The position numbers and the translations under genes were made by a program. From Patescibacteria group bacterium (GTDB lineage Bacteria > Patescibacteriota > Patescibacteriia > 2-12-FULL-60-25): a DNA stretch of 64,000 nt. Below, piece after piece: positions 48,395-64,000 of this stretch. The DNA is taken from contig JARGGJ010000006.1 in NCBI GenBank assembly GCA_029210915.1, positions 1 through 64,000 on the forward strand. The letters are read 5' to 3'. Position 1 is the first letter of the stretch; the number at the start of each line of letters is the position of its first letter. Below the pieces are notes generated by a model that was not told where the DNA came from, searched no databases, and saw only the letters and a list, made by a program, of their open reading frames with translations.

Positions 48395-51300
48395 ATGCCA
48401 AATCCCCAAAATAGGGTAGGCAAAAACCCAAATACATATTTAAAATATTTTGGTATCGCACCGTGTGCGAGGTTTTTTGTTTGTGGGTCGATGATTTGTT
48501 TGCAGGTAATCGGCGGGATATTTGGCTTTGGTTCGGTTTCTATCTCGGAGATGTTTACTATTCGAGCTGCGGAAGCGGCCGAGGGTATCAACCAAGCAAT
48601 TAATTACCAGGGTAAACTCATGGATTCTACCGGCAACCCGGTTGCAGATGGAAGTTATGACATTAAGTTTACGCTTTACACAGCAGAAAGTGGTGGTACC
48701 CAGCTCTGGACAGCCTCATCCACAAACGGTTTACCCGTGGGCGCGCCAGTATCCATTAGCGTTTCCGTTGTCTCAGGCTTGTTCAGCCTGCTCTTGGGTG
48801 ATGTTGGCAACAATCAAGTAGCCTTTCCTGAGGGATTATTCAAAAACGACAACCTTTTTCTTGGCGTAACTATCGGCACAGATTCGGAAATGACTCCCCG
48901 AAAACGCTTATCAGCAGTCCCCTACGCCTTTAATTCCGAAACTCTTCAGGGCCAATACGCCTCCAACACCGTGGCCAACACGGGCGGAGACTTATTTGCC
49001 TTGCACCAAGGATCCGCTGATGCGGCCACCGCCGCCAGAACTACGCTCTATATAGAGACAAAAGGCACCTCCAACCTAAACGATTTCTTGATCCGCGCCA
49101 GTGATTCCGTCTCGGATGTCTTTTCCGTATCCAGACAAGGAAATGTTACCACCACCGGAAACCTCGTGGTTGAAGGTGAGACGGATTTAAATAACACTCT
49201 AAACGTCTCCGCCACCTCAACTTTGGCGGATTTAGCTTTAACCGGGCGAGTCAACTCCAATTTGTTGCCCTACATCACAGACGCCTACACTCTTGGCAAC
49301 TCAACCTACAGATGGCTGGCGGTAACAGCTCAAAACATCAGCGCAGTAAACGTCAGCTCAACTAACATCGACGCTCTTGGCTACGTTTCAACAACGAATT
49401 TATACTCCGACACTGCTTTCTTGGGCAATGCTACAACAACAAACATCTACAACTCGGGCGTTGTCTCAACCACTCAACTCTACGTCAACGGCGTAGCTGT
49501 AACCGGAGCAGGACCAACAGCTACTTTGCAACAAGTTACAGATGCCGGTGCCGCAACAAACCATTGGATCCAATTTGACGGTGCAACATCCACAGACAAT
49601 ATTGTTCCAAGCTTAACCAACTCGTTAACTCTGGGAACAGAGAACTATCAATGGTTGGGAATTTTTGCTCAAAATGCTGATTTCACAAATGTTTCAAGCA
49701 CAAATTTAGATGCAAGTGGTTATATTGTAACCAACAATTTAACTGCTACTACAGCCGATTTAACATTTGTCAGCTCCACAAACATCGATGCATCAGGCTA
49801 CGTTTCCGCAGACACTTTAATTTCAAACTCAGCCAATCTTGGCAACGCCACTACAACCAACCTCTACAGCTCCGGCACAGTTTCAACAACAAATCTCTAC
49901 GTAAACGGCACGCAAATCACAGGCATCGAATCTCAAGATCTGCAAGATGTAACAGACTTGAGCTCTGTCACAACCAATTGGCTCCAATTTGCCGGTGCAA
50001 CATCAACTAATAACTTCTTGCCAGGCACCAACAATTTATATAATTTAGGATCTCTCGCCTATCGTTGGGCCAACCTCTTTGCGGTCAACGGCAACTTCAC
50101 AGGCACAGTCACCACGACTAATCTTTTTGCTTCTGGCTATGTCTCTACCACCAACCTCTACGTCAACGGTACACAAATCACAGGCGCAACTCCAAATCTT
50201 CAAGACGTCACGGACGAAGGCTATGTCACCACCAACCCGGTTCGCGTAGCGGGTGTAACATCAACGGGTCACATATTGCCGGCAACTAACATCAGCTATG
50301 ATTTAGGATCGTCTGCGAATCGTTGGAACAATATTTGGGGCGCAGAAGTTCATGTTGGCACATCAACCTGGGATTTGGCTCAAGCTAATAACGGCAGATT
50401 TACTTTAAGTAATTCGGGCAACGAAAGATTTACGATTCTCTCCACGGGCAATGTTGGTATTAATGATACAAATCCCGCCGAAAGACTTGTTGTTGGAGGT
50501 AATATCCGTTTGCAAGCGGGTGGAAACATCGATACCAGTGCGGCCGGTACTCTCACTATTGGTGGTACAACTCAAACAGGCTTAACCATGGGCAGAACAG
50601 GCGCAGCTACTACTCTAACAGGTTCCAACTTCACCAATGGAGGCTTAGCTTACGGCGCTTCCAATCAACTTACATTCACATCCGCAGGCACAGCCGGCAT
50701 GGCGGTTATCTCCGGAGGTACAGGAGCGCCAACCATGGGCACCCTCGGCTTAACCTATGGAGGTACCAATGCCAACTTATCCGGTGTAGCCACCGGAGGC
50801 ATCCTCTATAAAGGTGCTACAGCCATTGCCGGTACAGGTGCGCTAACCGGTGTACTTAAAGGTAATGGATCCGGCGCGCCTTCGGCCATGACAGGTACAG
50901 CCAACAGAGTTTCTTATTGGTCTGATGCCAATACACTTGGCACTTCCAACCTCGTACTTTCGGGCAACAACGTCTATCCAAACGCAGCCGGTTCCCTTGG
51001 TTTAACCGGCAGTAGATTCTCTGACGCCTACCTCTCGGGCAACGTATATGCCACAGGCACAATCCAAGGTGGAACCATGAGATCATACGGCAACTTGCGA
51101 GTCGACGGCACAACAACTTTCAATACAGTTGAATATACTTGGCCGGGCGCATCAAGCAACGGTTTATTGCGCAACACCGGCGGTACACTAACTTGGGACA
51201 ATACAACATACTTAACAGCAGTCGCAAATACTTCCTTAGCCTCAACAAATCTCTGGGTCGGCAACGCCTCAAACCAAGCAACCGCAGTAGCCATGTCGGG

Positions 51301-54300
51301 CGATGCCACTATGTCTAACACGGGTGCGGTAACTGTGGTTAATGATAGTCATGCTCACACCGCCTCAACAATCTCCGGCTTAAGCCCGGCAGACTTTACC
51401 TCCAATGCTGTTTCTCAATGGAACAACGACGCGGGGTATATCACAGGCGTGGCCGGTCAATCACTAACTTCTGCTAATCTCTGGATAGGTAATGCTTCTA
51501 ACTTAGCCGCGGCGGTTGCCATGAGCGGCGACGGCTCAATCTCTAATACGGGTGTATTGACGGTTAATAACGATAGTCATACTCACACCGCCTCGACTAT
51601 CTCGGGTCTGTCCGTAGCTGATTTCACTTCTTCAAACATTTCAAACTGGACCAATGATGCCGGTTATTTAACATCAGCTAATGCTTTTGTTCAAGGGGGA
51701 AACAGCTTTACGACGGGGGCGGTTTTGGGAACTAATGATGCTTATAGTTTGAGTTTTGAAACAGCTGGTACATCCAGAATGGAACTGACCACTTCAGGAG
51801 CATTGGTATTAAATGGAACCACTAATGGCATACAACTAGCGGTTAAGGCTAATGTCTCGCAGTCCAATGTTAATCCACTGGTTCTTTTAACAGACTCATC
51901 CGGTGCAGGATTGGTATCCTTACATTCGGATAACGCTTCCAATGTTTTTCTGGGTATAAATACGGGTCGTTCTAATACTATAGGCAGTGGAGTATACAAC
52001 AGTTTCTTGGGCAGTTCGGCAGGTTATGGTAACAGTGTAGGTGATGGTAATACCGCGGTTGGTTACCAGGCGTCACAACATAATCAAAGCGGCAATTATA
52101 ATACTTCGATGGGCTATCTATCCATGGTGGGTACGTTATTAAACAATCATAGCGGTAATACCGCAGTAGGCTCCTATACTTTGCAGGATATTACCACCGG
52201 TAATTATAATTCGGCTTTTGGTTATTATGCAGCCAATGATAATTTAAGCGGTACGTTTAATGTTGCGGTTGGCCCATTCGCTTTATATCAAAATACAGCC
52301 GATCACAATAATACGGCTGTCGGTGCGTATTCATTGATGGCTTCCAATGGTGGTGACTCTAACGTGGCTGTTGGTTATTACTCTGCCGGTGCTTTAACGA
52401 CGGCCGTACAAGTGACCGCTGTTGGTTATGAGGCGTTACTCAATAATAACGCCAGTTATCAAACGGCTTTTGGTGCGAACGCTTTATACAACAATACATC
52501 GGGTGCTTATAATACTGCTTTAGGCGTTAATACGCTGTACAGCAATCAAACAACTCCTTACAACGTAGCAATCGGTGCCAATGCACTTAGATATATAACG
52601 GCAGGTGGCAGCAATGTTGCCATTGGGGTAAATTCAGCGGGAGGTAGCACGGCATCAACCATAGCTAATTCAACTTTTGTCGGTCATGAATCCGGATATA
52701 CCATTAATACATCCGTAACTGATGACACGGGTATTGGTTATCGGTCTTTAAGAAGTTTAGACAGTGGAAGTTATAACACAGCTTTAGGTTCAGGTTCTTT
52801 GTATACCTTGACTAACGGAAATTACAACACGGCCGTTGGATACAATGCCGGTTATAGTAATACGGGTGATTTAAATGTAATAATTGGCGCTACGGCCATG
52901 AATGCAGCAAGTTCAGCAGGATATAATGTAGCTGTCGGTTATGCCGCAATGACAAATTTTACAGGAACCGTTGGTCAAAACACGGCCGTCGGTTATAGCG
53001 CGATGGGCGCGCTAACTAGTGGTACTCTTAATACAGGCATAGGCGAGAGTGTTTTTGTAAATTTAACAAGCGGAGATTACAATACCGCTGTAGGTAATGG
53101 AGCCGGTTCAGGTATTACAACAACTAATTATAATACTTTTCTTGGCTATTTATCTCGTGCATCCGGAGCGTATACCAATGCAATGGCCTTGGGTTACAAT
53201 GCTAATGTAATAGGTTCAAACAGGGTTCATGTTGGTAATACAAGTGTTACTTGGATCGGAGGACAGGTTTCATTTTTAACTTATTCAGATGTCAGAATTA
53301 AAGAAAATATTAACGATACAAATTTAGGATTGTCATTTATCAATAAATTAAGACCCGTTAAATATACATATAAAGCATCCCACAGCCCCACTGCCGGAGA
53401 TAAGGTTTATGATGGATTAATCGCGGATGAGGTTAAAGCAACCATGGACGACATGGGGGTTACTTTTAGTGGGTATAATGATCCGGCTGAAGATGGTGGT
53501 GATCCAGATGGCTTAAAAAGTATTGCTTACGGTGCATTAACAGTTCCTCTTATTCGTGCCACTCAAGAACTCTACGCCTCCTCCTCACCTCTGTGGAACG
53601 GTGTATCAATTGATCCAAACTTTACAGCCTTGGATGAACCTTTCATGCAAGTTGACCAAGATGGCAACATCGCATACAAAGGCGTATCCATCACATCGCA
53701 AGGCATCGCCACATCTTCGACACAAGCTTTTGATTCATTCACATTTAGCTATAAAGGATCAGCTTGGAACACAGATACGGCTCAAGAAATCACAACATCA
53801 TTTGATGTCTTTAACAACACAATCAGCGCAACATCTTCAGAACTCAAATTCATCTACACAACCGGAACCGGTTTTACAAAAGACTTACTCACCATCTCAA
53901 ACTCCGGCGATGTCCGCGTTTCCGGCGATCTTCACGTAGGTCGTAGATTATACCTTGGTTCCAAGGTCAACGGAGAAGCCTCAACCTCAACCTACATCTT
54001 TGTAGACGACACCTTGTCACCAACATCATCTTACATCGCAACCAATGCCGACGGTTGGCAAACAGAAACTACATACGATTACGCCGAGCGTTATGAATCG
54101 AGTGAAGATTTGATTCCCGGTGATCTTGTAACCGTAGACACTACCGGAATCAACAAAGTTAAGCGGGCCACATCGCCGGCAGATCCGCTTATGGGTATCG
54201 TTTCCACCAAACCGGGTTTCGTTACCGGCCGGCACTACGAAGGTTGGTATCCTGTTGCGCTGGCTGGCCGTGTTCCTACTCGCGTATCAACAAAAAACGG

Positions 54301-54967
54301 CGCAATCCAAGCCGGTGATTACATTACGGCATCAGATATCCCCGGTGTTGGCGTTAAAACCGAGGATCGATCCAACGTTATTGGTATTGCTCTGGAACCA
54401 TATTCATCATCAGAAGAGGGTTTGATTAGCGTTTTTGTAAAGAGTGTTGGCACAAGCCAAGAATCAAATACAACTATAGTTTATGGTCCGGAACAGCCTC
54501 TTGCCGAAGTAAACATTAAAGGTTTTGCGGTAATCACTGCCGGTTCCAAGGAAGTAAAAGTAACTTTTGCAAGCATTAATGCATTCCCGCTTGTCAAACT
54601 AACTCCGTACGGAAGCATGGACGGTTCATATTGGTTATCGGAAGTTAAGGATACCGGGTTCACTATCGTACTTTCGAACGAGCAAGCGCATGACCTCATG
54701 ATCTCGTACGAAGTAACCCTGCCTACAACTTTAGATGTAAACCTCTCCAGCGGTGAAACAGGACAAATGGATGAGCTTACCGGTACAGTTGTTTATCCCG
54801 AAACCCAAGAACCGGAACCAACTATTGAACCCGACTCTGCCCCAATCGAAGAACCCGAAACACCGGCCGAAGAACCCACTGAACCTGTCGAAAACCCGGC
54901 TCCGGATGAGCAAACACAACCTGAAAATCTAAATATAGATTTATCCACAACAACGGCAAACATGTAA
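48395..54967 (+). CDS. Giant adhesin/tail-fibre-like surface protein 1 with S74 chaperone domain
   Basis: A 2190-residue exported protein. A long hydrophobic signal (about 18-47) leads to a conserved head (about 66-190: AINYQGKLMDSTG, SDIKFTLYTAES-like strand, TPRKRLSAVPYAFNSE). Repeats of VSSTNIDALGYVSTTNLY and LYVNGTQITG type follow (about 300-650), then tail-fibre motifs (GNVGINDTNPAERL). Residues about 1198-1615 are YadA-head-like repeats (GNYNTAVGYNAG). A Peptidase_S74 (intramolecular chaperone of endosialidase) domain lies at about 1631-1722 (SDVRIKENINDTNLGLSFIN, DGLIADEVKATMDDM). About 470 residues follow it, ending in a Pro/Glu tail. S74 domains normally trimerise and cleave themselves off at the C-terminus; here it is internal. 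Probably an attachment fibre. Confidence 0.93.
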   Translation: MPNPQNRVGKNPNTYLKYFGIAPCARFFVCGSMICLQVIGGIFGFGSVSISEMFTIRAAEAAEGINQAINYQGKLMDSTGNPVADGSYDIKFTLYTAESGGTQLWTASSTNGLPVGAPVSISVSVVSGLFSLLLGDVGNNQVAFPEGLFKNDNLFLGVTIGTDSEMTPRKRLSAVPYAFNSETLQGQYASNTVANTGGDLFALHQGSADAATAARTTLYIETKGTSNLNDFLIRASDSVSDVFSVSRQGNVTTTGNLVVEGETDLNNTLNVSATSTLADLALTGRVNSNLLPYITDAYTLGNSTYRWLAVTAQNISAVNVSSTNIDALGYVSTTNLYSDTAFLGNATTTNIYNSGVVSTTQLYVNGVAVTGAGPTATLQQVTDAGAATNHWIQFDGATSTDNIVPSLTNSLTLGTENYQWLGIFAQNADFTNVSSTNLDASGYIVTNNLTATTADLTFVSSTNIDASGYVSADTLISNSANLGNATTTNLYSSGTVSTTNLYVNGTQITGIESQDLQDVTDLSSVTTNWLQFAGATSTNNFLPGTNNLYNLGSLAYRWANLFAVNGNFTGTVTTTNLFASGYVSTTNLYVNGTQITGATPNLQDVTDEGYVTTNPVRVAGVTSTGHILPATNISYDLGSSANRWNNIWGAEVHVGTSTWDLAQANNGRFTLSNSGNERFTILSTGNVGINDTNPAERLVVGGNIRLQAGGNIDTSAAGTLTIGGTTQTGLTMGRTGAATTLTGSNFTNGGLAYGASNQLTFTSAGTAGMAVISGGTGAPTMGTLGLTYGGTNANLSGVATGGILYKGATAIAGTGALTGVLKGNGSGAPSAMTGTANRVSYWSDANTLGTSNLVLSGNNVYPNAAGSLGLTGSRFSDAYLSGNVYATGTIQGGTMRSYGNLRVDGTTTFNTVEYTWPGASSNGLLRNTGGTLTWDNTTYLTAVANTSLASTNLWVGNASNQATAVAMSGDATMSNTGAVTVVNDSHAHTASTISGLSPADFTSNAVSQWNNDAGYITGVAGQSLTSANLWIGNASNLAAAVAMSGDGSISNTGVLTVNNDSHTHTASTISGLSVADFTSSNISNWTNDAGYLTSANAFVQGGNSFTTGAVLGTNDAYSLSFETAGTSRMELTTSGALVLNGTTNGIQLAVKANVSQSNVNPLVLLTDSSGAGLVSLHSDNASNVFLGINTGRSNTIGSGVYNSFLGSSAGYGNSVGDGNTAVGYQASQHNQSGNYNTSMGYLSMVGTLLNNHSGNTAVGSYTLQDITTGNYNSAFGYYAANDNLSGTFNVAVGPFALYQNTADHNNTAVGAYSLMASNGGDSNVAVGYYSAGALTTAVQVTAVGYEALLNNNASYQTAFGANALYNNTSGAYNTALGVNTLYSNQTTPYNVAIGANALRYITAGGSNVAIGVNSAGGSTASTIANSTFVGHESGYTINTSVTDDTGIGYRSLRSLDSGSYNTALGSGSLYTLTNGNYNTAVGYNAGYSNTGDLNVIIGATAMNAASSAGYNVAVGYAAMTNFTGTVGQNTAVGYSAMGALTSGTLNTGIGESVFVNLTSGDYNTAVGNGAGSGITTTNYNTFLGYLSRASGAYTNAMALGYNANVIGSNRVHVGNTSVTWIGGQVSFLTYSDVRIKENINDTNLGLSFINKLRPVKYTYKASHSPTAGDKVYDGLIADEVKATMDDMGVTFSGYNDPAEDGGDPDGLKSIAYGALTVPLIRATQELYASSSPLWNGVSIDPNFTALDEPFMQVDQDGNIAYKGVSITSQGIATSSTQAFDSFTFSYKGSAWNTDTAQEITTSFDVFNNTISATSSELKFIYTTGTGFTKDLLTISNSGDVRVSGDLHVGRRLYLGSKVNGEASTSTYIFVDDTLSPTSSYIATNADGWQTETTYDYAERYESSEDLIPGDLVTVDTTGINKVKRATSPADPLMGIVSTKPGFVTGRHYEGWYPVALAGRVPTRVSTKNGAIQAGDYITASDIPGVGVKTEDRSNVIGIALEPYSSSEEGLISVFVKSVGTSQESNTTIVYGPEQPLAEVNIKGFAVITAGSKEVKVTFASINAFPLVKLTPYGSMDGSYWLSEVKDTGFTIVLSNEQAHDLMISYEVTLPTTLDVNLSSGETGQMDELTGTVVYPETQEPEPTIEPDSAPIEEPETPAEEPTEPVENPAPDEQTQPENLNIDLSTTTANM

Positions 54968-54974
54968 CAAAAAC

Positions 54975-55537
54975 AGCTAAACAAAAACAAAAAACCATAA
55001 AATCATAAGCCTGTGCATAACCTGTGTATTTTGTGTATAAGTAAAAAATATTAAACAGAGATCAAAAACAGCTGTTCGAGATTTTGTATATATAAAACAT
55101 TTTGTTCACAGATGCTTTTTTTTATATCCACAAACTTTTTCTCTTTCTTTAGCTAAAAAAACAAAGCCGTATATATGAGTTAGTATTTATATATCGCAAA
55201 GGAGAACAGGCCTAAGCGTAGAAAGCTTTGTTTAGACACAGCAAATCTTTCCACGAATACCTGTTCTTTTTCTTTCAACACAAATAAAAAAAATCAATTT
55301 TCTCAAATACCTCGTCAATTCTATGAATTCAGTTAAACGGGGTAAACAATCCTGGAAATCCTTGAGCCAAAATCAAGGTAATCCTGGTAAAAAACGGCAA
55401 AAACAAAAATCAACGATCCTAAAAATCCTAAAATCCTGTTAATCAGGGTACGCATTGGCAAACCAAACTGACAGGTAAACCAATGAAACCAAATCGCGTG
55501 GGCAACAAAAATTAGAAATCTGCCCAGCTAAACCAAC
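54975..55537 (+). promoter_or_regulatory. Leader region of giant protein 2 with DnaA-box-like words and a hairpin/T-tract
   Basis: TGTGCATAA (55012-55020), TGTGTATTT and TGTGTATAA (55031-55039) plus ATATCCACA (about 55124) resemble DnaA boxes. TTTTGTATATATAAAAC (about 55082-55099) may hold a promoter. GAACAGG / CCTGTTC (about 55203 and 55259) encloses about 50 bases and is followed by TTTTTCTTT, so it may attenuate transcription. Family D words (AATCCTGG, AATCAAGGTAATCC) occupy 55347-55450. There is no gene in this 560-base gap. Confidence 0.4.
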
Positions 55538-58500
55538 ATGCCGTTAAACACCAAGTCCCAAAAGGGAAACAAAAACTTTACAGACAGACTACGCTCCGCG
55601 ATGAACGCGAGGCTTTTTATTTACGCCACGATGGTTATGGCGCAAGTACTTGGCTCACTTTTTGGCTTCGGATCAGTCACTGTCAACGAACTGTTTGGTG
55701 TTAACGCAGCCTATGCCGCCGAGGGCATCAGTCACGCAATCAACTACCAAGGAAAATTAATGGACGCGGATGGTAAATTAGTTGCAGACGGTGATTATGA
55801 CATTATTTTTAGTCTTTACGATACCGCATCAGCTGGTACTCGTTTATGGACAGCAAATGGAACTACCGGTTCGCCGAGCGCTGTTTCAGTTTCTGTTCAA
55901 AGTGGTTTATTTTCAATTTTACTGGGTGATGTTGGAGCTGGTATGAACGAATTTTCAGATGGATTTTTTAATAATGATTCTTTGTATTTAGGCATCACTG
56001 TCGGCGCAGACACTGAAATGACTCCTCGCAAACGCTTATCTGCCGTACCTTACGCTTATAATTCCGAAATGCTTCAGGGCCAATATGCTTCCAATACTGT
56101 TGCTACAACAGGTGGAGACCTATTTGCCTTACATCAAGGGGGGAATAATTCAGCCAGTGCAGTTAGAACAGTCCTAGGTGTTTACACATCCGGTACATCT
56201 GATACAAATGATTATTTAATTCGTGCTAACTCCGGATCAGACGTTTTTTCAGTTAATCGCGAAGGCAACACAAATATAGCAGGTACACTAAATGCATCCG
56301 CGACCTCTACCTTTACTGATATCTCCCTTTCCGGACGTGTCGATTCAGATTTACTTCCTTATATCACGGATACTTATAACCTAGGCAACTCCTCATATCG
56401 CTGGCTCGGTTTAAATGTAGCTAACGTCTCCTCAACCAACATTGATGCCTTGGGTTATGTCTCCACCACCAACCTTTACGTTGATGGAGTTCAAATAACC
56501 GGTGCCACACCAAACCTCGACCAAGTCACAACCGAGGGTAACATCACAAGTAATGCAATCGGCGTCGCCGGAGTTTCTTCGACCGGAAATATCTTGCCAA
56601 CAGCATCACTAACATATGATTTAGGCTCAACCTCAAGAAGATGGAATGATGTATATTTAGGAGATCTATATGCCACAGGCACGGTTCAAGGTGGCAGTAT
56701 GAGGTCATATGGAGCACTGCAAGTTGATGGTGCAACTACACTAAATGGCACAGTTGGCTTAGGTAATGCAGTGGGTGACATCATCACAGCTACGGGTCGC
56801 TTTGGTTCCGCATTAGTTCCAAACGCAAATACTTATAATCTGGGTTTAGTTACAACAGCAAATCGTTGGGGCACTGCATATTTGAATGGTGCTTTATACG
56901 CAACTGGTACAGTTCAAGGTGGCAGTATGAGGTCATATGGAGCATTACAAGTTGATGGTGCAACTACACTAAATGGCACCGTTGGCTTAGGTAACTCAAC
57001 AGGAGATACAATTACTGCTACTGGTTACTTTGGCTCCGGTTTAATACCGTCTCTTGATAATACGTATTCACTGGGTTCTTCCGCATTGCGCTGGAAAAAT
57101 ATTTACGCAGTAAACGTCTCCTCAACCAACATTGATGCTTTAAACTACGTATCAACTACAAATTTATATGTAGACGGAGTACAAATAACCGGAGCAACCC
57201 CAAACCTCGACCAAGTCACAACCGAGGGTAACATCACAAGCAATGAAATCGGTGTTGGTGGTGTTTCTTCTACGGGTAATATCTTACCAACAACATCATT
57301 AACCTATGATTTAGGCTCAACCTCAAGAAGATGGAATGATGCATATTTAGGAGATCTATACGCCACAGGCACCATCCAAGGTGGAACCATGAGGTCATAT
57401 GGAGCACTACAAGTTGATGGTGCAACTACACTAAATGGCACAGTTGGCTTAGGTAATGCAGTAGGTGACATCATCACAGCTACGGGTCGCTTTGGTTCCG
57501 CATTAGTTCCAAACGCAAATACATATAATCTGGGTTTAACTGCCACGGCAAATCGTTGGGGTAGTGCGTATCTAAATGGTGCTTTATACGCAACTGGTAC
57601 AGTTCAAGGTGGAACCATGAGATCATATGGCAACTTGCGTGTTGATGGAACAACAACTTTAAATACAGTGGAATATACTTGGCCGGGCGCATCAAGCAAC
57701 GGTTTATTGCGCAACACCGGCGGTACACTAACTTGGGATCCGGCAACATATTTAACAGCGGTAGCGGGCACTTCCTTAGACTCAACCAAATTCTGGGTGG
57801 GTAATGCCTCAAACCAAGCAACCGCAGTAGCCATGTCGGGCGATGCCACCATGTCCAACACGGGTGAGGTAGCTGTGGTTAACGATAGTCACAACCATAC
57901 CGGCACTACATTATCCATCCCGGGTACTTCTCTAACAGATGCCAGACTCTGGGTAGGTAATGTATCCGGTGCAGCAGCAGAAGTCCTCATGAGCGGTGAT
58001 GGTACATTATCAAACGCAGGTGTTTTGGATGTTTCAGGATTAGATACCGGTGACTTTGCATCAGCTAATATCTCTCAATGGACAAATAATGCAGGGTATT
58101 TAACTTCACTTGGAAATGCCTTTGTTGATGGAGGTAACACATTTGGCAACACGGGAGACCTTGGTACCAATGATGGTTTTGCTTTGAATTTCAGAACAAA
58201 TAACGCGACTCGTGTAGTATTGGATACAACCGGTAACCTTTATCCATTAGCAAACAATGCTTATGATTTAGGCAAAGCATCCAATTCCTGGAACAACCTC
58301 TACGTATCATCAACCGCATATTTTGGCGGTGTCGGAGGTACATCAATCAACTTTGCAACATCTGCCGTAATGACAGCAACACCGGGATCTTATCCTGCAT
58401 TCACGTTCTATCCCACAGCCAAGGCCAACAGTCTGTTTTTCGTAGGTGACGATTCACTGAATACCGCATTATTGATTAAAAACGCAACACACACGGCTAT

Positions 58501-61500
58501 AGCAGCTGATTGGCTTCAAGATTTTGCCTTAACCGTTGGCGGTAATGTAGGCCCATATACAAACTTGGCATACGACCTCGGTTCTTCATCTAATCGTTGG
58601 AAAGATATTTGGGCAAGCTCTACATACATAGGCGCATCAACCTGGAATTTACGTCAAAACGCCAGCGGGTACTTTACGATTGCGGATGTTGGAGGAAGTG
58701 AAAAGGTAACAGTTGATACAAGCGGTAAAGTTGGTATTGGCACAAGCGCGCCCGCAAGAGAATTGCATATTGCCGATGGTATTATCCGTGTGGATCGTTC
58801 CTCTGATTCAGCCTCGTTCATGTTGCATCGATACGACGGTGTTGATCCCTGGAAAACCTTCTTCTTTGGTGTAAACGCTACCGGTACAAATGATGGTTAC
58901 TTCTTTATCAGTGATTTAGGCTCGGCAGTTACCGGTGGAGGTGCTCAACGTTTTGTGATCGATAATACAGGCAATGTTGGTATTGGGACATCAACACCGA
59001 ATTCGAAATTACACATTTATAATAATCAAATTGATAATGTCGTCGAAGACATGTTAACACTGGAGACTTATCGAGGTGATTTTGGAAGTATAGAGGGTAA
59101 TGCAATACTTTTTAAAAATTTAGACTCCAATAATGGTATCAATGAGGCACGTATTAAAGTTGTAACGGAAAATGATGGTTCTTTAGGCATTAACAATGAA
59201 AGTTCATCAAGTTTTATATTTAACATGACCAATTCCGGTGCTCCTACAGACCGGGTTATCTTTAGAGGAGATGGAAGAGTTGGTATTGGTACTCTTCTAC
59301 CCGAAAGAACTTTGCATATTTCCGGAACACAAAAAATTTCTGGAGTCACTCCATTCATTGAACTCGAAGATACAGGGACATCAAAGAAGTGGTACTACGG
59401 TCTAGATGATGCTAATTTCTGGGTTAGAGAAGATAGTACAGCTGGTGTCAATGAACGTTTTACCGTTGCAGCGGGTGGTAACGTTGGAATAGGTAACACT
59501 TCTCCGGCTTCATTACTTACAGTTGGCAGCGGGGGTACTTTCCAGGTCAACACCAGTGGTGACATTGTAAAAATCAAAGATGTTACTTACACTTGGCCCG
59601 ACGCGAATGCATCCGGAATATTAAGAAATAGTGGCACCGGCACGCTAACTTGGGATACTACAACATATTTAACATCAGCTATGGCATTTATGCAGGGGGG
59701 TAATAGTTTTGGTACGGCAGCAGTACTAGGTACAAACGATAACAATACGCTATCTTTTGAGACTAATGGGACTTCAAGAGCTACTCTGGGGACTGATGGA
59801 GGTTTAACGTTGCTAGGCACTGCTAATACCGAACAACTAACCGTAAAAGCATATTCTTCACAAAGCAATGTTAATCCGCTTATAGTTTTTCAAAATTCGG
59901 CAGGTTCTGTGATTGGTCAAATTCATACGGATCATGACGCAAATGTTTTTATGGGTGTGCAAAGCGGTATACTAAACTCGGGTACACAAAACAGCTTCAT
60001 CGGCAGCAGGGCTGGTTATAGAAACACAAGCGGCAACGGTAATACAGGTTTAGGTTACTACGCATTATATGCACCTCAAACCGGAGATTATAACGTTGCT
60101 ATTGGCGCTTTAGCAGGTAGAGGAACCGGTGGTGACGAGAATACCTTTGTAGGTGCCTGGACAGGTTTTGCCGGTGGCCCGGGTGTACCTTACGTTAGTA
60201 ATTACAATACCGCTTTAGGCTCCCGTTCAATGCAGAACACGCAAACAGGTAGTTACAATACCTCGCTTGGTTCTTCTGTTATGTATTCCAATACTACAGG
60301 CGCTTCGAATACAGCCATTGGTTTTGAGAGCATGTACACTAATCAAATAGGTACTAGGAATGTAGCCGTGGGTACATACGCAATGAGGAATCAAAGTGGA
60401 GTTGTAGATGAAGCCGTTGCTGTTGGCTATAAAGCGCTATACTCAATTGCAAATACAAATGGCGTAGCGATAGGTGCGCATAGTTTTGAGAACGCTTGGG
60501 CTTCACCCGGAACAGCTGTTGGTGATCATGCATTTTACAGTCTTACGAGTGGTCACCATAACACTGGCTTGGGTGGTTCCGCGGGTTACTATGCTGGTGG
60601 AAGTTACAATACTGCCATTGGTGATAGCAGCTTATTTGCCTTAAGTGGAAGCACAGGAAGTTATAACACTGCAGTTGGTGCATCTTCAATGATAACTCTA
60701 ACATCAGGAGCTTCTAACACCGCCTTGGGTTACAAAAGTTTATATGAAAATTCCATAGGTTATAGAAATACAGGTGTTGGTGCAGAAAGCATGTACGGGA
60801 ATAATGACGGATTTGCAAATACAGCTATAGGCAACAGATCTTTATATGGCAATTCTCATGGAGATCATAACTCAATCATGGGTGATTCAGCGGCTTATAG
60901 TTTGGAAGGTAGCTATAACACAATTAACGGGTCAGCTGCTGGATATCAATTATTGGCAGGTAATCACAATACGGCAATGGGATACAGAAGTATGCTGGCT
61001 GGCGCAAGTGCTGATGCTTCATTTAATGTCGCGATAGGAAATTTCTCTTTACAAGCCATAACTAGCGGTGCTTCTAATACTGCAGTTGGTTATTATAGTT
61101 TAAAAAATAATACAACAGGGTTTTCGAATACAGCTGTTGGTTTGAATGCGCTTCAAAGCAATATAGGTGGTTTTCAAAATGTAGCTTTAGGTAACGCTAG
61201 TCTAGGTAGTGCAACCAATGGCTTAAACAACAACGCCATAGGGTCCGGTGCTTTAGGTAAGCTAACTTCTGGTAATTACAATTCTGTATTAGGTGGCTTA
61301 GCTGGATATAGGTTAGATACTGGCAGTTATAACGTTGGTGTGGGATATCGCTCTTTGAGCGCCAATACTATTGGAGGAACCTATGAGTTTAATTATAATT
61401 CCGCAATTGGCGCTTACGCGCTTGGCAAACTAACAACCGGCGCTAGTAATACAGCTGTAGGATATGAAGCTTTGTTTAGTTTAACCACCGGTTATAATAA

Positions 61501-64000
61501 TATTGCGTTGGGTAACAATGCGGCCGGGTCAATAACAGGCAGTACTTATAACATCGCAATAGGCGATGATGCATTGGGTAACGCTACTGTTTCAGCAGGA
61601 AATATCGCAATGGGCAGTGCATCCATGAGGGATATCTCTGGCACGGCGTCGAACAATGTTTCGATTGGTAATTATTCTATGATGTCTGCAACAGACGCTG
61701 ATTTCACTGTAGCCATTGGTTACTATGCAGCTGCTAGTTCTACTGGCAACAGTAATGTCGCTATCGGTCAAAATGCTTTAGCAAATGATACCGCGGGTAA
61801 TAACGTGGCCATCGGAAGTGGAGCGGGGTCATTAAATACAGGTGGAATTGAATTAACTGCCATTGGCTATAATGCAGCTGATGCCAATGTTACCGGTTAT
61901 TATAATACTGCCTTGGGATCTTCCGCTTTAACCGCTAGCCAATATGGTGATAATAATACAGCGGTTGGTGCTGATACGCTTTATCTCATGAATGGAGGAT
62001 TTGGTAACACAGCAGTGGGGAGTCAGTCATCATATCGCTTGGGAAGCACGGCAGATAATAATACTTCACTTGGTTATAATGCACTCTACGGAACTTCAGC
62101 TTCATATTCAACCGGTGATGATAATACCGCGATAGGTCAGAGTACTTTATATAGTAATTCAACCGGCTATCAGAACACCGCAATTGGTAGCAGTGCATTG
62201 TATTTAAATTCTTCGGGTATTCGTAATGTAGGATTGGGATCTAATTCCGTTGCTAGAAACACAACCGGTGATTACAACATCGGTATAGGTTATTCTGCAT
62301 TATATTATAGCCAAACCGGAACTGATAACATTGCCATTGGTCGTAATGCACTGGCCGGTACAGCTGATTATGCTTCTTATTATAACATTGCTATTGGTAC
62401 ATATTCGCTGGATGCGATTGGCTCTTCGTCATATGGCAATGTTGGTATTGGCTATGGTACTTTAAGTGCGTTAACCACACCAAATTACAATACCGCCGTT
62501 GGATATAATGCCTCTACAAACCTAACCCTTGGCACGGCCAATGTCTCATTAGGTGCAAACTCAATGAATTATAACCAAACCGGTAATTATAATGTTTATT
62601 TAGGGCATTATGCAGGCTACGGTGTAGCAAATAACTCGAATAGTTCAAACGTCGGTATCGGTTATTATGCGATGTCCGGTATCACCACAGGTAATGATAA
62701 TGTTGCAATCGGTGATGATTCATCACGAGATATCACAACAGGGTCATATAATACGTTGATTGGTGGTAGATCCGGTTATTATACAGAAGGCAGTACATAT
62801 AATACCGCAGTTGGTTATAATGCTCTTAATGGCACAAATGGTTCAACTGATTCATATAATACCGCCATAGGTTCATATGCTTTGGATGGATTATCCGGCG
62901 GAGGTCATTATAACACCGCATTAGGCTATGGTGCCGGTGGTTCAATTACTTCGGGCGATTATAATGTTGCTATTGGGTATGCAGCCCTAGATTCACAAAC
63001 GACCGCTGGTGAAAATATAGCCATTGGTTATAACGCTTTGGGTGTTGCAAACTCCACCGGTTTAGAAAATTTGGCTATCGGTACCCGTGCCGGGGATGTA
63101 ATCTCCTCTGGTGATTGGAATGTTATGATTGGTAACGATGCGGGTGATTTATTACAAACGGGGAGTGCTAACACGTTTGTTGGTTATCATGCGGGTAATG
63201 ATACCGGAACCTATACTGGAAATAGTACACTAGTTGGATATGGTTCTGATGTTACGGGAAATTATACCAATGCCAGTGCTTTTGGAAGTTTTGCTACAGT
63301 AAGCGCTTCAGATAGAGCAATGATCGGAAATGGTCAAACTGTTGGTGGATCAAGTGGTTGGAATAATTGGTCTGATTCAAGATTGAAATACGATATCAAC
63401 GACAGTAATCTGGGTCTTGACTTTATAAATAAACTTCGAGTAAGAACTTTCAGATATACTACAACTTCTAACATGGCTCATGCGGGAGTGCTGGAAGATG
63501 GTTTTGTGGCGCAGGAAGTTGAGGCAGCTATGAATGATTTGAGTGTAAACTTTAGCGGTTTAGGTTATCCGGAAAATCCAAATGATTATTATAGACTTGA
63601 TTACGCTAAATTCACAGTTCCTCTAGTCAACGCAACTCAAGAACTCTACGCCTCCTCCTCACCTCTTTGGAACGGCATAGCCATAGATCCAAACTTTGCA
63701 ACAACCTCAGAACCCTTCATGCAAGTTGATATGGACGGCAACATTGCCTACAAAGGCGTATCCATCACATCACAAGGCATCGCCACATCTTCAACTCAAG
63801 CTTTTGATTCATTCACATTTAGCTACAAAGGATCAGCTTGGAACACAGATACGGCTCAAGAAATCACAACATCATTTGATGCCTTTAACAATACAATCAG
63901 CGCAACATCTTCAGAACTCAAATTCATCTACACAACCGGAACCGGCTTTACAAAAGACTTACTCACCATCTCAAACTCCGGCGATGTCCGCGTATCCGGC
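55538..64000 (+). CDS. Giant adhesin/tail-fibre-like surface protein 2, 3'-truncated by window end
   Basis: An open frame of at least 2821 codons from ATG 55538 (MPLNTKSQKGNKNF) with no stop before the window end. It parallels giant protein 1: hydrophobic signal (about 25-55), head AINYQGKLMDADGKLVADGDYD and TPRKRLSAVPYAYNSE, TNLYVDGVQITG repeats with a 690-base in-frame duplication, several GNVGIGTS tail-fibre motifs (about 1060-1330), very long YadA-head-like repeats (about 1480-2590, GNYNTAVGY type) and an S74 domain (about 2611-2701, SDSRLKYDINDSNLGLDFIN and EDGFVAQEVEAAMNDL). The segment after S74 is almost identical in DNA to that of protein 1. It is probably a longer alternative fibre. 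Confidence 0.93.
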   Translation, partial: MPLNTKSQKGNKNFTDRLRSAMNARLFIYATMVMAQVLGSLFGFGSVTVNELFGVNAAYAAEGISHAINYQGKLMDADGKLVADGDYDIIFSLYDTASAGTRLWTANGTTGSPSAVSVSVQSGLFSILLGDVGAGMNEFSDGFFNNDSLYLGITVGADTEMTPRKRLSAVPYAYNSEMLQGQYASNTVATTGGDLFALHQGGNNSASAVRTVLGVYTSGTSDTNDYLIRANSGSDVFSVNREGNTNIAGTLNASATSTFTDISLSGRVDSDLLPYITDTYNLGNSSYRWLGLNVANVSSTNIDALGYVSTTNLYVDGVQITGATPNLDQVTTEGNITSNAIGVAGVSSTGNILPTASLTYDLGSTSRRWNDVYLGDLYATGTVQGGSMRSYGALQVDGATTLNGTVGLGNAVGDIITATGRFGSALVPNANTYNLGLVTTANRWGTAYLNGALYATGTVQGGSMRSYGALQVDGATTLNGTVGLGNSTGDTITATGYFGSGLIPSLDNTYSLGSSALRWKNIYAVNVSSTNIDALNYVSTTNLYVDGVQITGATPNLDQVTTEGNITSNEIGVGGVSSTGNILPTTSLTYDLGSTSRRWNDAYLGDLYATGTIQGGTMRSYGALQVDGATTLNGTVGLGNAVGDIITATGRFGSALVPNANTYNLGLTATANRWGSAYLNGALYATGTVQGGTMRSYGNLRVDGTTTLNTVEYTWPGASSNGLLRNTGGTLTWDPATYLTAVAGTSLDSTKFWVGNASNQATAVAMSGDATMSNTGEVAVVNDSHNHTGTTLSIPGTSLTDARLWVGNVSGAAAEVLMSGDGTLSNAGVLDVSGLDTGDFASANISQWTNNAGYLTSLGNAFVDGGNTFGNTGDLGTNDGFALNFRTNNATRVVLDTTGNLYPLANNAYDLGKASNSWNNLYVSSTAYFGGVGGTSINFATSAVMTATPGSYPAFTFYPTAKANSLFFVGDDSLNTALLIKNATHTAIAADWLQDFALTVGGNVGPYTNLAYDLGSSSNRWKDIWASSTYIGASTWNLRQNASGYFTIADVGGSEKVTVDTSGKVGIGTSAPARELHIADGIIRVDRSSDSASFMLHRYDGVDPWKTFFFGVNATGTNDGYFFISDLGSAVTGGGAQRFVIDNTGNVGIGTSTPNSKLHIYNNQIDNVVEDMLTLETYRGDFGSIEGNAILFKNLDSNNGINEARIKVVTENDGSLGINNESSSSFIFNMTNSGAPTDRVIFRGDGRVGIGTLLPERTLHISGTQKISGVTPFIELEDTGTSKKWYYGLDDANFWVREDSTAGVNERFTVAAGGNVGIGNTSPASLLTVGSGGTFQVNTSGDIVKIKDVTYTWPDANASGILRNSGTGTLTWDTTTYLTSAMAFMQGGNSFGTAAVLGTNDNNTLSFETNGTSRATLGTDGGLTLLGTANTEQLTVKAYSSQSNVNPLIVFQNSAGSVIGQIHTDHDANVFMGVQSGILNSGTQNSFIGSRAGYRNTSGNGNTGLGYYALYAPQTGDYNVAIGALAGRGTGGDENTFVGAWTGFAGGPGVPYVSNYNTALGSRSMQNTQTGSYNTSLGSSVMYSNTTGASNTAIGFESMYTNQIGTRNVAVGTYAMRNQSGVVDEAVAVGYKALYSIANTNGVAIGAHSFENAWASPGTAVGDHAFYSLTSGHHNTGLGGSAGYYAGGSYNTAIGDSSLFALSGSTGSYNTAVGASSMITLTSGASNTALGYKSLYENSIGYRNTGVGAESMYGNNDGFANTAIGNRSLYGNSHGDHNSIMGDSAAYSLEGSYNTINGSAAGYQLLAGNHNTAMGYRSMLAGASADASFNVAIGNFSLQAITSGASNTAVGYYSLKNNTTGFSNTAVGLNALQSNIGGFQNVALGNASLGSATNGLNNNAIGSGALGKLTSGNYNSVLGGLAGYRLDTGSYNVGVGYRSLSANTIGGTYEFNYNSAIGAYALGKLTTGASNTAVGYEALFSLTTGYNNIALGNNAAGSITGSTYNIAIGDDALGNATVSAGNIAMGSASMRDISGTASNNVSIGNYSMMSATDADFTVAIGYYAAASSTGNSNVAIGQNALANDTAGNNVAIGSGAGSLNTGGIELTAIGYNAADANVTGYYNTALGSSALTASQYGDNNTAVGADTLYLMNGGFGNTAVGSQSSYRLGSTADNNTSLGYNALYGTSASYSTGDDNTAIGQSTLYSNSTGYQNTAIGSSALYLNSSGIRNVGLGSNSVARNTTGDYNIGIGYSALYYSQTGTDNIAIGRNALAGTADYASYYNIAIGTYSLDAIGSSSYGNVGIGYGTLSALTTPNYNTAVGYNASTNLTLGTANVSLGANSMNYNQTGNYNVYLGHYAGYGVANNSNSSNVGIGYYAMSGITTGNDNVAIGDDSSRDITTGSYNTLIGGRSGYYTEGSTYNTAVGYNALNGTNGSTDSYNTAIGSYALDGLSGGGHYNTALGYGAGGSITSGDYNVAIGYAALDSQTTAGENIAIGYNALGVANSTGLENLAIGTRAGDVISSGDWNVMIGNDAGDLLQTGSANTFVGYHAGNDTGTYTGNSTLVGYGSDVTGNYTNASAFGSFATVSASDRAMIGNGQTVGGSSGWNNWSDSRLKYDINDSNLGLDFINKLRVRTFRYTTTSNMAHAGVLEDGFVAQEVEAAMNDLSVNFSGLGYPENPNDYYRLDYAKFTVPLVNATQELYASSSPLWNGIAIDPNFATTSEPFMQVDMDGNIAYKGVSITSQGIATSSTQAFDSFTFSYKGSAWNTDTAQEITTSFDAFNNTISATSSELKFIYTTGTGFTKDLLTISNSGDVRVSG
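56423..57640 (+). repeat. 690-base in-frame duplication within giant gene 2
   Basis: AACGTCTCCTCAACCAACAT occurs at 56423 and again at 57113, exactly 690 bases (230 codons) apart, and the following several hundred bases match closely, including ACACCAAACCTCGACCAAG-type and GGTCATATGGAGCACTACAAG words. A shorter third copy of the latter lies at about 56905-57000. Confidence 0.85.

Follow-up and report, generated by a model that had tools for sequence, protein, structure and literature searches.

Tandem genes for predicted giant surface fibres in a Patescibacteria genome and the probable homogenisation of their constant modules by ectopic gene conversion

The pilE/pilS and vlsE loci are antigenic-variation systems with gene conversion among surface-protein paralogues, and Peptidase_G2 (PF11962) is the autoproteolytic chaperone of Bacillus-phage appendages. 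The two tandem giant genes described here, designated G1 and G2, resemble pilE/pilS and vlsE in the apparent gene conversion among surface-protein paralogues, but two probes found no silent cassettes and the conversion lies in the constant, not the variable, part. As in the phage appendages, Peptidase_G2 is present: all six constant modules of the relatives match PF11962 at E<0.01, and that of G1 scores above the curated cut-off of 25 (31.4-32.2 bits); however, the match is partial (only model positions 45-104 of 228 are aligned), the domain often occurs in two tandem copies, and the genes are cellular rather than phage. The giants also have arrays of NTAxG-like repeats, as YadA-type trimeric autotransporters do, and a sequence-only reading of this DNA had called these arrays YadA-like. 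However, Pfam gave no YadA head, stalk or membrane-anchor match in either protein, and the array instead has its matches among phage tail-spike families (E about 1e-47).

Two further systems are close. In phage tail fibres and receptor-binding proteins, the modules that are shuffled are fibre bodies, intramolecular chaperones and lectin-like tips (PMC10684548), much as seems to be the case here, except that the giants are cellular tandem genes of Patescibacteria and that their copies of the chaperone block have been homogenised within one genome. The intramolecular chaperone autocleavage domain of endosialidase, T5 fibre and MyRF (PMC8326128) resembles a domain of the giants in its PF13884 (Peptidase_S74) match, its Ser-Lys spacing and its place after a trimeric-fibre-like array; in the giants, however, this domain is internal, and about 500 aa containing Peptidase_G2 and a beta domain come after it. 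No paper describing gene conversion in surface fibres of Patescibacteria turned up in a literature search of partial coverage, and for that reason the absence is weak evidence of novelty.

The locus and the parts of the two giant genes

The source genome is a 1.455-Mb draft in 49 contigs, and the window, by which we mean the whole stretch of DNA analysed, comprises the first 64 kb of the 68.8-kb contig C46. All features of G1 and G2 lie on the plus strand. G1 (48395-54967) is a single open frame for a giant fibre-like protein of 2190 aa, predicted to be secreted; its hydrophobic N-terminal stretch, ending in RAAEAAEG, is a putative signal peptide. Its tandem paralogue G2 (3183 aa) is an open frame that occupies 55538-64000 of the window and runs on to C46:65089. 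A third relative in the same genome, P3, takes up the whole of contig C29 (8649 bp, L007); contig C27 (L062) carries the 5' part of P3 or of a further giant gene; since C27 and C29 are unjoined, with no overlap, the 5' part of P3 is not proven. A fourth, more distant family member lies on contig C17. The gene order of TPR membrane gene, coiled-coil gene, first giant and second giant is kept in genome G007, which belongs to the same genus but another species. The membrane gene has the look of an O-antigen ligase, a name that was dropped because Pfam gives TPR repeats alone. The G007 giants include R1, R1b and R2, of which the last two are probably the two ends of one gene, with no overlap between them. 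In G007 and G001, too, giant genes run up to the edge of a contig. As judged by eye, minus-strand lipoprotein-like genes lie downstream of G2, of R2 and of the G001 giant S1 alike.

Two other sets of tandem paralogues were observed around these loci. Just beyond the window, L006 2400-3971 and 4144-5676 (C46 65400-68676) are minus-strand lipoprotein-like paralogues with a common signal peptide and 112/120 common upstream bases, whose bodies have diverged to silent-site saturation; this pair repeats, in another family, the shared-5'-end pattern of the giants. In G001, three tandem secreted paralogues (L077 4115-9810) lie between the coiled-coil gene and S1, alike in their first 40 aa (65-90%, silent-site divergence, pS, 0.27-0.50) and diverged, with saturated silent sites, in the remainder.

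Each giant starts with an N-terminal head, which is followed by a long repetitive body and then by the chaperone slot; a constant Peptidase_G2 module comes next, and a C-terminal beta domain closes the protein. The G1 head (INYQGKL...PRKRLSAVPYA; 48578-49099) belongs to no Pfam or PHROG family, and the G2 head (55718-56227) is near-identical to contig C27 in patches. In the body of G1, a stretch at 49112-50284 is for the most part closest to R1 (65-96% aa, versus 26-66% to G2), and the stretch at 51392-51784 is again nearest to R1 (80% aa, pS 0.64, versus 60% and 0.79 for G2). Between them lies a tract in common with G2, block C (50996-51319), whose counterpart in G2 lies at 57530-57859. The sequence-only reading had pointed to a 20-mer recurring in both genes, and ACTTGGCCGGGCGCATCAAG indeed occurs exactly twice, at 51137 and at 57677, nine bases from the second position it gave (57668); it sits in a 307-bp block (51045-51351 versus 57585-57891) that is 88% identical. 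G2 also has stretches in common with P3 and not with G1, one at 58121-58597 (79% aa, pS 0.49) and one within its array at 61145-61462 (84% aa, pS 0.42). A tandem duplication of 553 bp within G2 was also noted (56423-56974 and 57113-57664, 87% identical). The NTAxG repeat array of G1 (51977-53269) is tail-spike-like (phrog_4636, E=9e-48), and that of G2 (59945-63337) is 2.6 times as long, close to the 2.7-fold difference given before, with limits set by eye at aa 1195-1625 (~430 aa) in G1 and aa 1470-2600 (~1130 aa) in G2.

The Peptidase_S74 chaperone (PF13884) follows at 53285-53464 in G1, with SDVRIK at aa 1631, and at 63371-63550 in G2, with SDSRLK at aa 2612. After it comes the constant module, which in G1 (53525-54349) contains a tract in common with G2 and P3 and a Peptidase_G2 match (54062-54247; E=1.6e-7), and which in G2 begins at 63602 and runs on beyond the end of the window at 64000. 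The DNA after S74 had been described as almost identical between the genes; it is alike, but to a lesser degree, being 87.5% identical over 810 blastn columns (53523-54327 versus C46:63597-64401, a block of 805 bp) and 90% identical over the part inside the window (53523-53926 versus 63597-64000). The C-terminal beta domain of G1 (54509-54781) has pS 0.83 against G2 and is not homogenised.

Silent sites and trees of the shared tracts

All silent-site comparisons rest on metagenome-type draft genomes, and between G1 and G2 they gave pS values of 0.73 in the head, 0.77-0.86 in the fibre, 0.77 in S74 and 0.83-0.88 in the C-terminal parts. Lower values were obtained for block C (0.42), the post-S74 block (0.27) and the Peptidase_G2 part (0.53). 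Four-fold sites were changed at 18/84 positions in the post-S74 block versus 30/43 in the flanks (Fisher p=2e-7), and in 3/20000 permutations a window of 40 codons had as few as 2 silent changes. As a control, the neighbouring TPR membrane gene compared between the two species (G000 versus G007) was uniformly saturated, with pS 0.70-0.91 per 60-codon window; since this single-copy gene is saturated throughout, the tracts are far younger than the species split. The identity scan along both genes, which had been set as a check, thus gave divergence far from uniform, and not the uniform divergence that had been named as counter-evidence to a mosaic. In addition, the claim that the two genes have near-identical ends failed: the heads are 68% identical in aa and the last ~200 aa 58-60% or unalignable, silent sites being saturated in both, and the shared post-S74 block is internal rather than an end of the gene.

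One could suppose that G1 and G2 are ancient duplicates without recombination, with blocks alike merely through strong protein constraint on the chaperone module, and Peptidase_G2 is in fact the most conserved protein part across the relatives. We consider this highly improbable. Silent divergence drops in the blocks and is at saturation almost everywhere else, and constraint on the protein cannot produce such islands. Between genomes, these same codons are saturated, and a synonymous constraint, which should hold across species too, does not. The trees of neighbouring blocks, whose limits were chosen after the identity scan, also conflict with each other. In the constant-module tree, G1, G2 and P3 form one clade (100/98), and AU tests rejected the groupings G1+G2+R1 (p=3e-4) and P3+R2+S1 (p=0.003). 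About 55 codons downstream, in the C-terminal-domain tree, G1 and G2 group instead with R1 (97/97), P3 falls within the R2/S1/L050 group (100/99), and the AU test rejected G1+G2+P3 (p=7e-5).

The nearest relative of G1 likewise switches along the gene, being R1 (up to 96%) for much of aa 240-630 and for aa 1000-1130, and the neighbour G2 for aa 870-990 and 1711-1950; P3 shows such switches too. In the G1/R1 fibre stretches at 49562-50194 (G1 aa 390-600), pS was 0.62-0.66, under the lowest window of the control gene (0.70), a slight difference that might possibly hint at exchange between species.

Shared tracts were also found between G2 and the contigs C27 and C29. Non-coding DNA upstream of G2 (55148-55290) matches the first 141 bases of C27 at 91.6% identity, and the upstream edge of G2 with its first ~89 codons (55452-55803) is 90% identical; sharing is thus partial in the upstream DNA and reaches ~98% over the start codon and initial ~180 coding nt. 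From the start codon, 119 nt are perfect, then the sequences diverge and the similarity returns, with a 36-codon silent-identical run that was reached in 2/20000 permutations. The last 154 nt of G2 are 95% identical to C29, with 1/34 four-fold sites changed. At the very end of C29 (L007 8573-8649), 77 bases are identical to the G2 tail, as happens where a repeat breaks an assembly.

The mosaic pattern recurs in two other genomes, G007 and G034. The head of the G007 tandem pair R1/R1b has a 49-codon silent-identical run that was reached in 0/20000 permutations. In G034, from another genus, three tandem giants have heads and constant modules that are mostly 81-100% identical in aa, with pS down to 0.09-0.11, around middles that are mostly unrelated. 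Assembly chimera was considered as a source of the tracts and rejected, given the 10-20% difference between copies and the recurrence of the pattern in genomes that were assembled independently.

Taken together, these comparisons show tracts of ~0.1-0.8 kb (head, one body linker, constant module, extreme 5' and 3' ends) that were copied from one paralogue of the genome to another well after the two species had separated, and bodies, S74 and C-terminal domains that by the same measures have kept older and partly different ancestries. Conversion within the cell is one candidate source of the tracts, and uptake of DNA from other strains is another. The gene conversion proposed by the sequence-only reading is supported for the shared blocks by three independent lines: the tract-wise drops at silent sites, the trees that contradict each other in both directions under AU tests, and the recurrence in other genomes.

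The chaperone slot and the C-terminal domain

PF13884 matches G1 and G2 at 32.8 and 35 bits (cut-off 22), and a Ser-Lys pair is kept in the S74 domains (SDVRIK, SDSRLK, SDARLK and SDVRAK); in endoNF, the dyad S911/K916 has a spacing of 5 (PMC8326128). As the earlier reading held, the S74 domains of G1 and G2 have diverged, with 46% aa identity and saturated silent sites. By profiles built in this analysis, the slot upstream of the constant module is occupied by S74 in 4 genes (G1, G2, P3 and R1, all from one genus), by a second Peptidase_G2 in 32 and by both in none, which suggests that each fibre body moves together with its own folding helper. More distant family members have a single Peptidase_G2, without S74. 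Two tandem Peptidase_G2 domains, as in R2 (L040, protein residues 4013-4404), are the commonest arrangement of the family. A separate S74 protein of ~865 aa (L008 8274-10871) has the usual layout, with S74 at its C-terminal end, and similar S74 frames of about 700-1000 aa were seen in many genomes of the family. A tblastn search for the constant module in viral contigs found none, a scan of the genome-contig collection found one relative only, and a PDB sequence search with the same module gave chance-level matches only. The predicted structure of the post-S74 region, from a three-sequence input, reached pLDDT 37.

The C-terminal domain of G1 has no Pfam match and a predicted H-type-lectin-like fold (pLDDT 82), weakly resembling Helix pomatia agglutinin, the R2-pyocin fibre (foot) and phage tail-spike domains; Foldseek gave E 0.015-0.07 and TM 0.5-0.57 against PDB, and E 3e-4 against viral models (phage proteins). 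The giants are most likely trimeric surface fibres, presumably used in attachment, with a predicted fibre and adhesin function and the C-terminal domain as a putative sugar-binding tip. If S74 does cut itself, the cleavage would release the constant module and the lectin-like domain from the mature fibre unless they stay attached, which weakens the tip role of that domain.

Fibre bodies, possible cassette exchange and a possible role in host specificity

We considered whether a recent whole-gene duplication came first and foreign cassettes then took the place of the middle between fixed ends, with no conversion of those ends. G2 and C27/C29 do have 5' and 3' ends in common around different bodies. 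The second giant in G007, in the position of G2, starts with an LVIVD-type body related to P3 and not to G2, in which no LVIVD was reported, and sister genomes thus have different bodies at the same place in the locus; S74 and a second Peptidase_G2 are, moreover, alternative occupants of one slot. However, the tracts are of different ages (pS 0.12, 0.27, 0.42 and 0.53) and include internal blocks, and the body of G1 is closest to its positional orthologue R1 in two stretches. These flank the G2-like tract, which indicates that ends or linkers moved, not the body. We therefore regard this history as unlikely. The swapping of a specificity-bearing part, which the sequence-only reading had proposed, stands on an evolutionary time scale only, through the LVIVD body at the same locus position and the alternation of S74 and Peptidase_G2 in the slot; in G1 itself the constant blocks moved instead.

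The reading had further likened the locus to antigen variation. If programmed antigenic or host-range variation switched rapidly in the population, C27/C29 could be an alternative allele of the G2 locus: the exact match at the end of C29 is what an assembly bubble would give, and C27 and G2 have upstream DNA and start in common. The start of C27 has no exact match to C46, however, and the two probes (constant module and head) found no silent partial donor cassettes in the genome: the constant module occurs at four places and the head at five, all in long open frames, copies elsewhere in the genome being another check that had been set. The lack of donor cassettes leaves programmed variation unsupported, and the saturated silent sites of the bodies make the variants old, so that rapid switching seems very improbable to us. 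A related proposal is a cellular host-range system in which body-plus-chaperone cassettes (array and S74, or LVIVD-type body and second Peptidase_G2) are exchanged between homogenised flanks and alternative bodies coexist at one locus in the living population, with C27/C29 as an allele of G2. This we hold to be quite doubtful.

Overall, we think it probable that these are tandem Patescibacteria genes for giant surface fibres whose constant modules are homogenised by ectopic gene conversion and whose bodies and tips diverge or are exchanged as body-plus-chaperone cassettes. Ectopic homologous recombination, mostly gene conversion, would act between tandem and dispersed copies, and would be tolerated in the modules for the secretion start and for the folding and trimerisation chaperone, where copying may be harmless because these serve every fibre equally. 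Selection or lack of homology would keep the bodies and lectin-like tips distinct. In the longer term, a body and its adjacent chaperone may be exchanged as one cassette between constant flanks, changing binding with assembly kept, in what looks like fibre diversification without breaking assembly.

Because the arrays break assemblies in several genomes, their diversity is under-recorded. Attachment to other cells is the way of life of some Patescibacteria (PMC10936435). In related genomes, a locus kept beside the same membrane gene, in which giant fibres would diversify by recombination with a common chaperone module, offers concrete candidate genes for host specificity.
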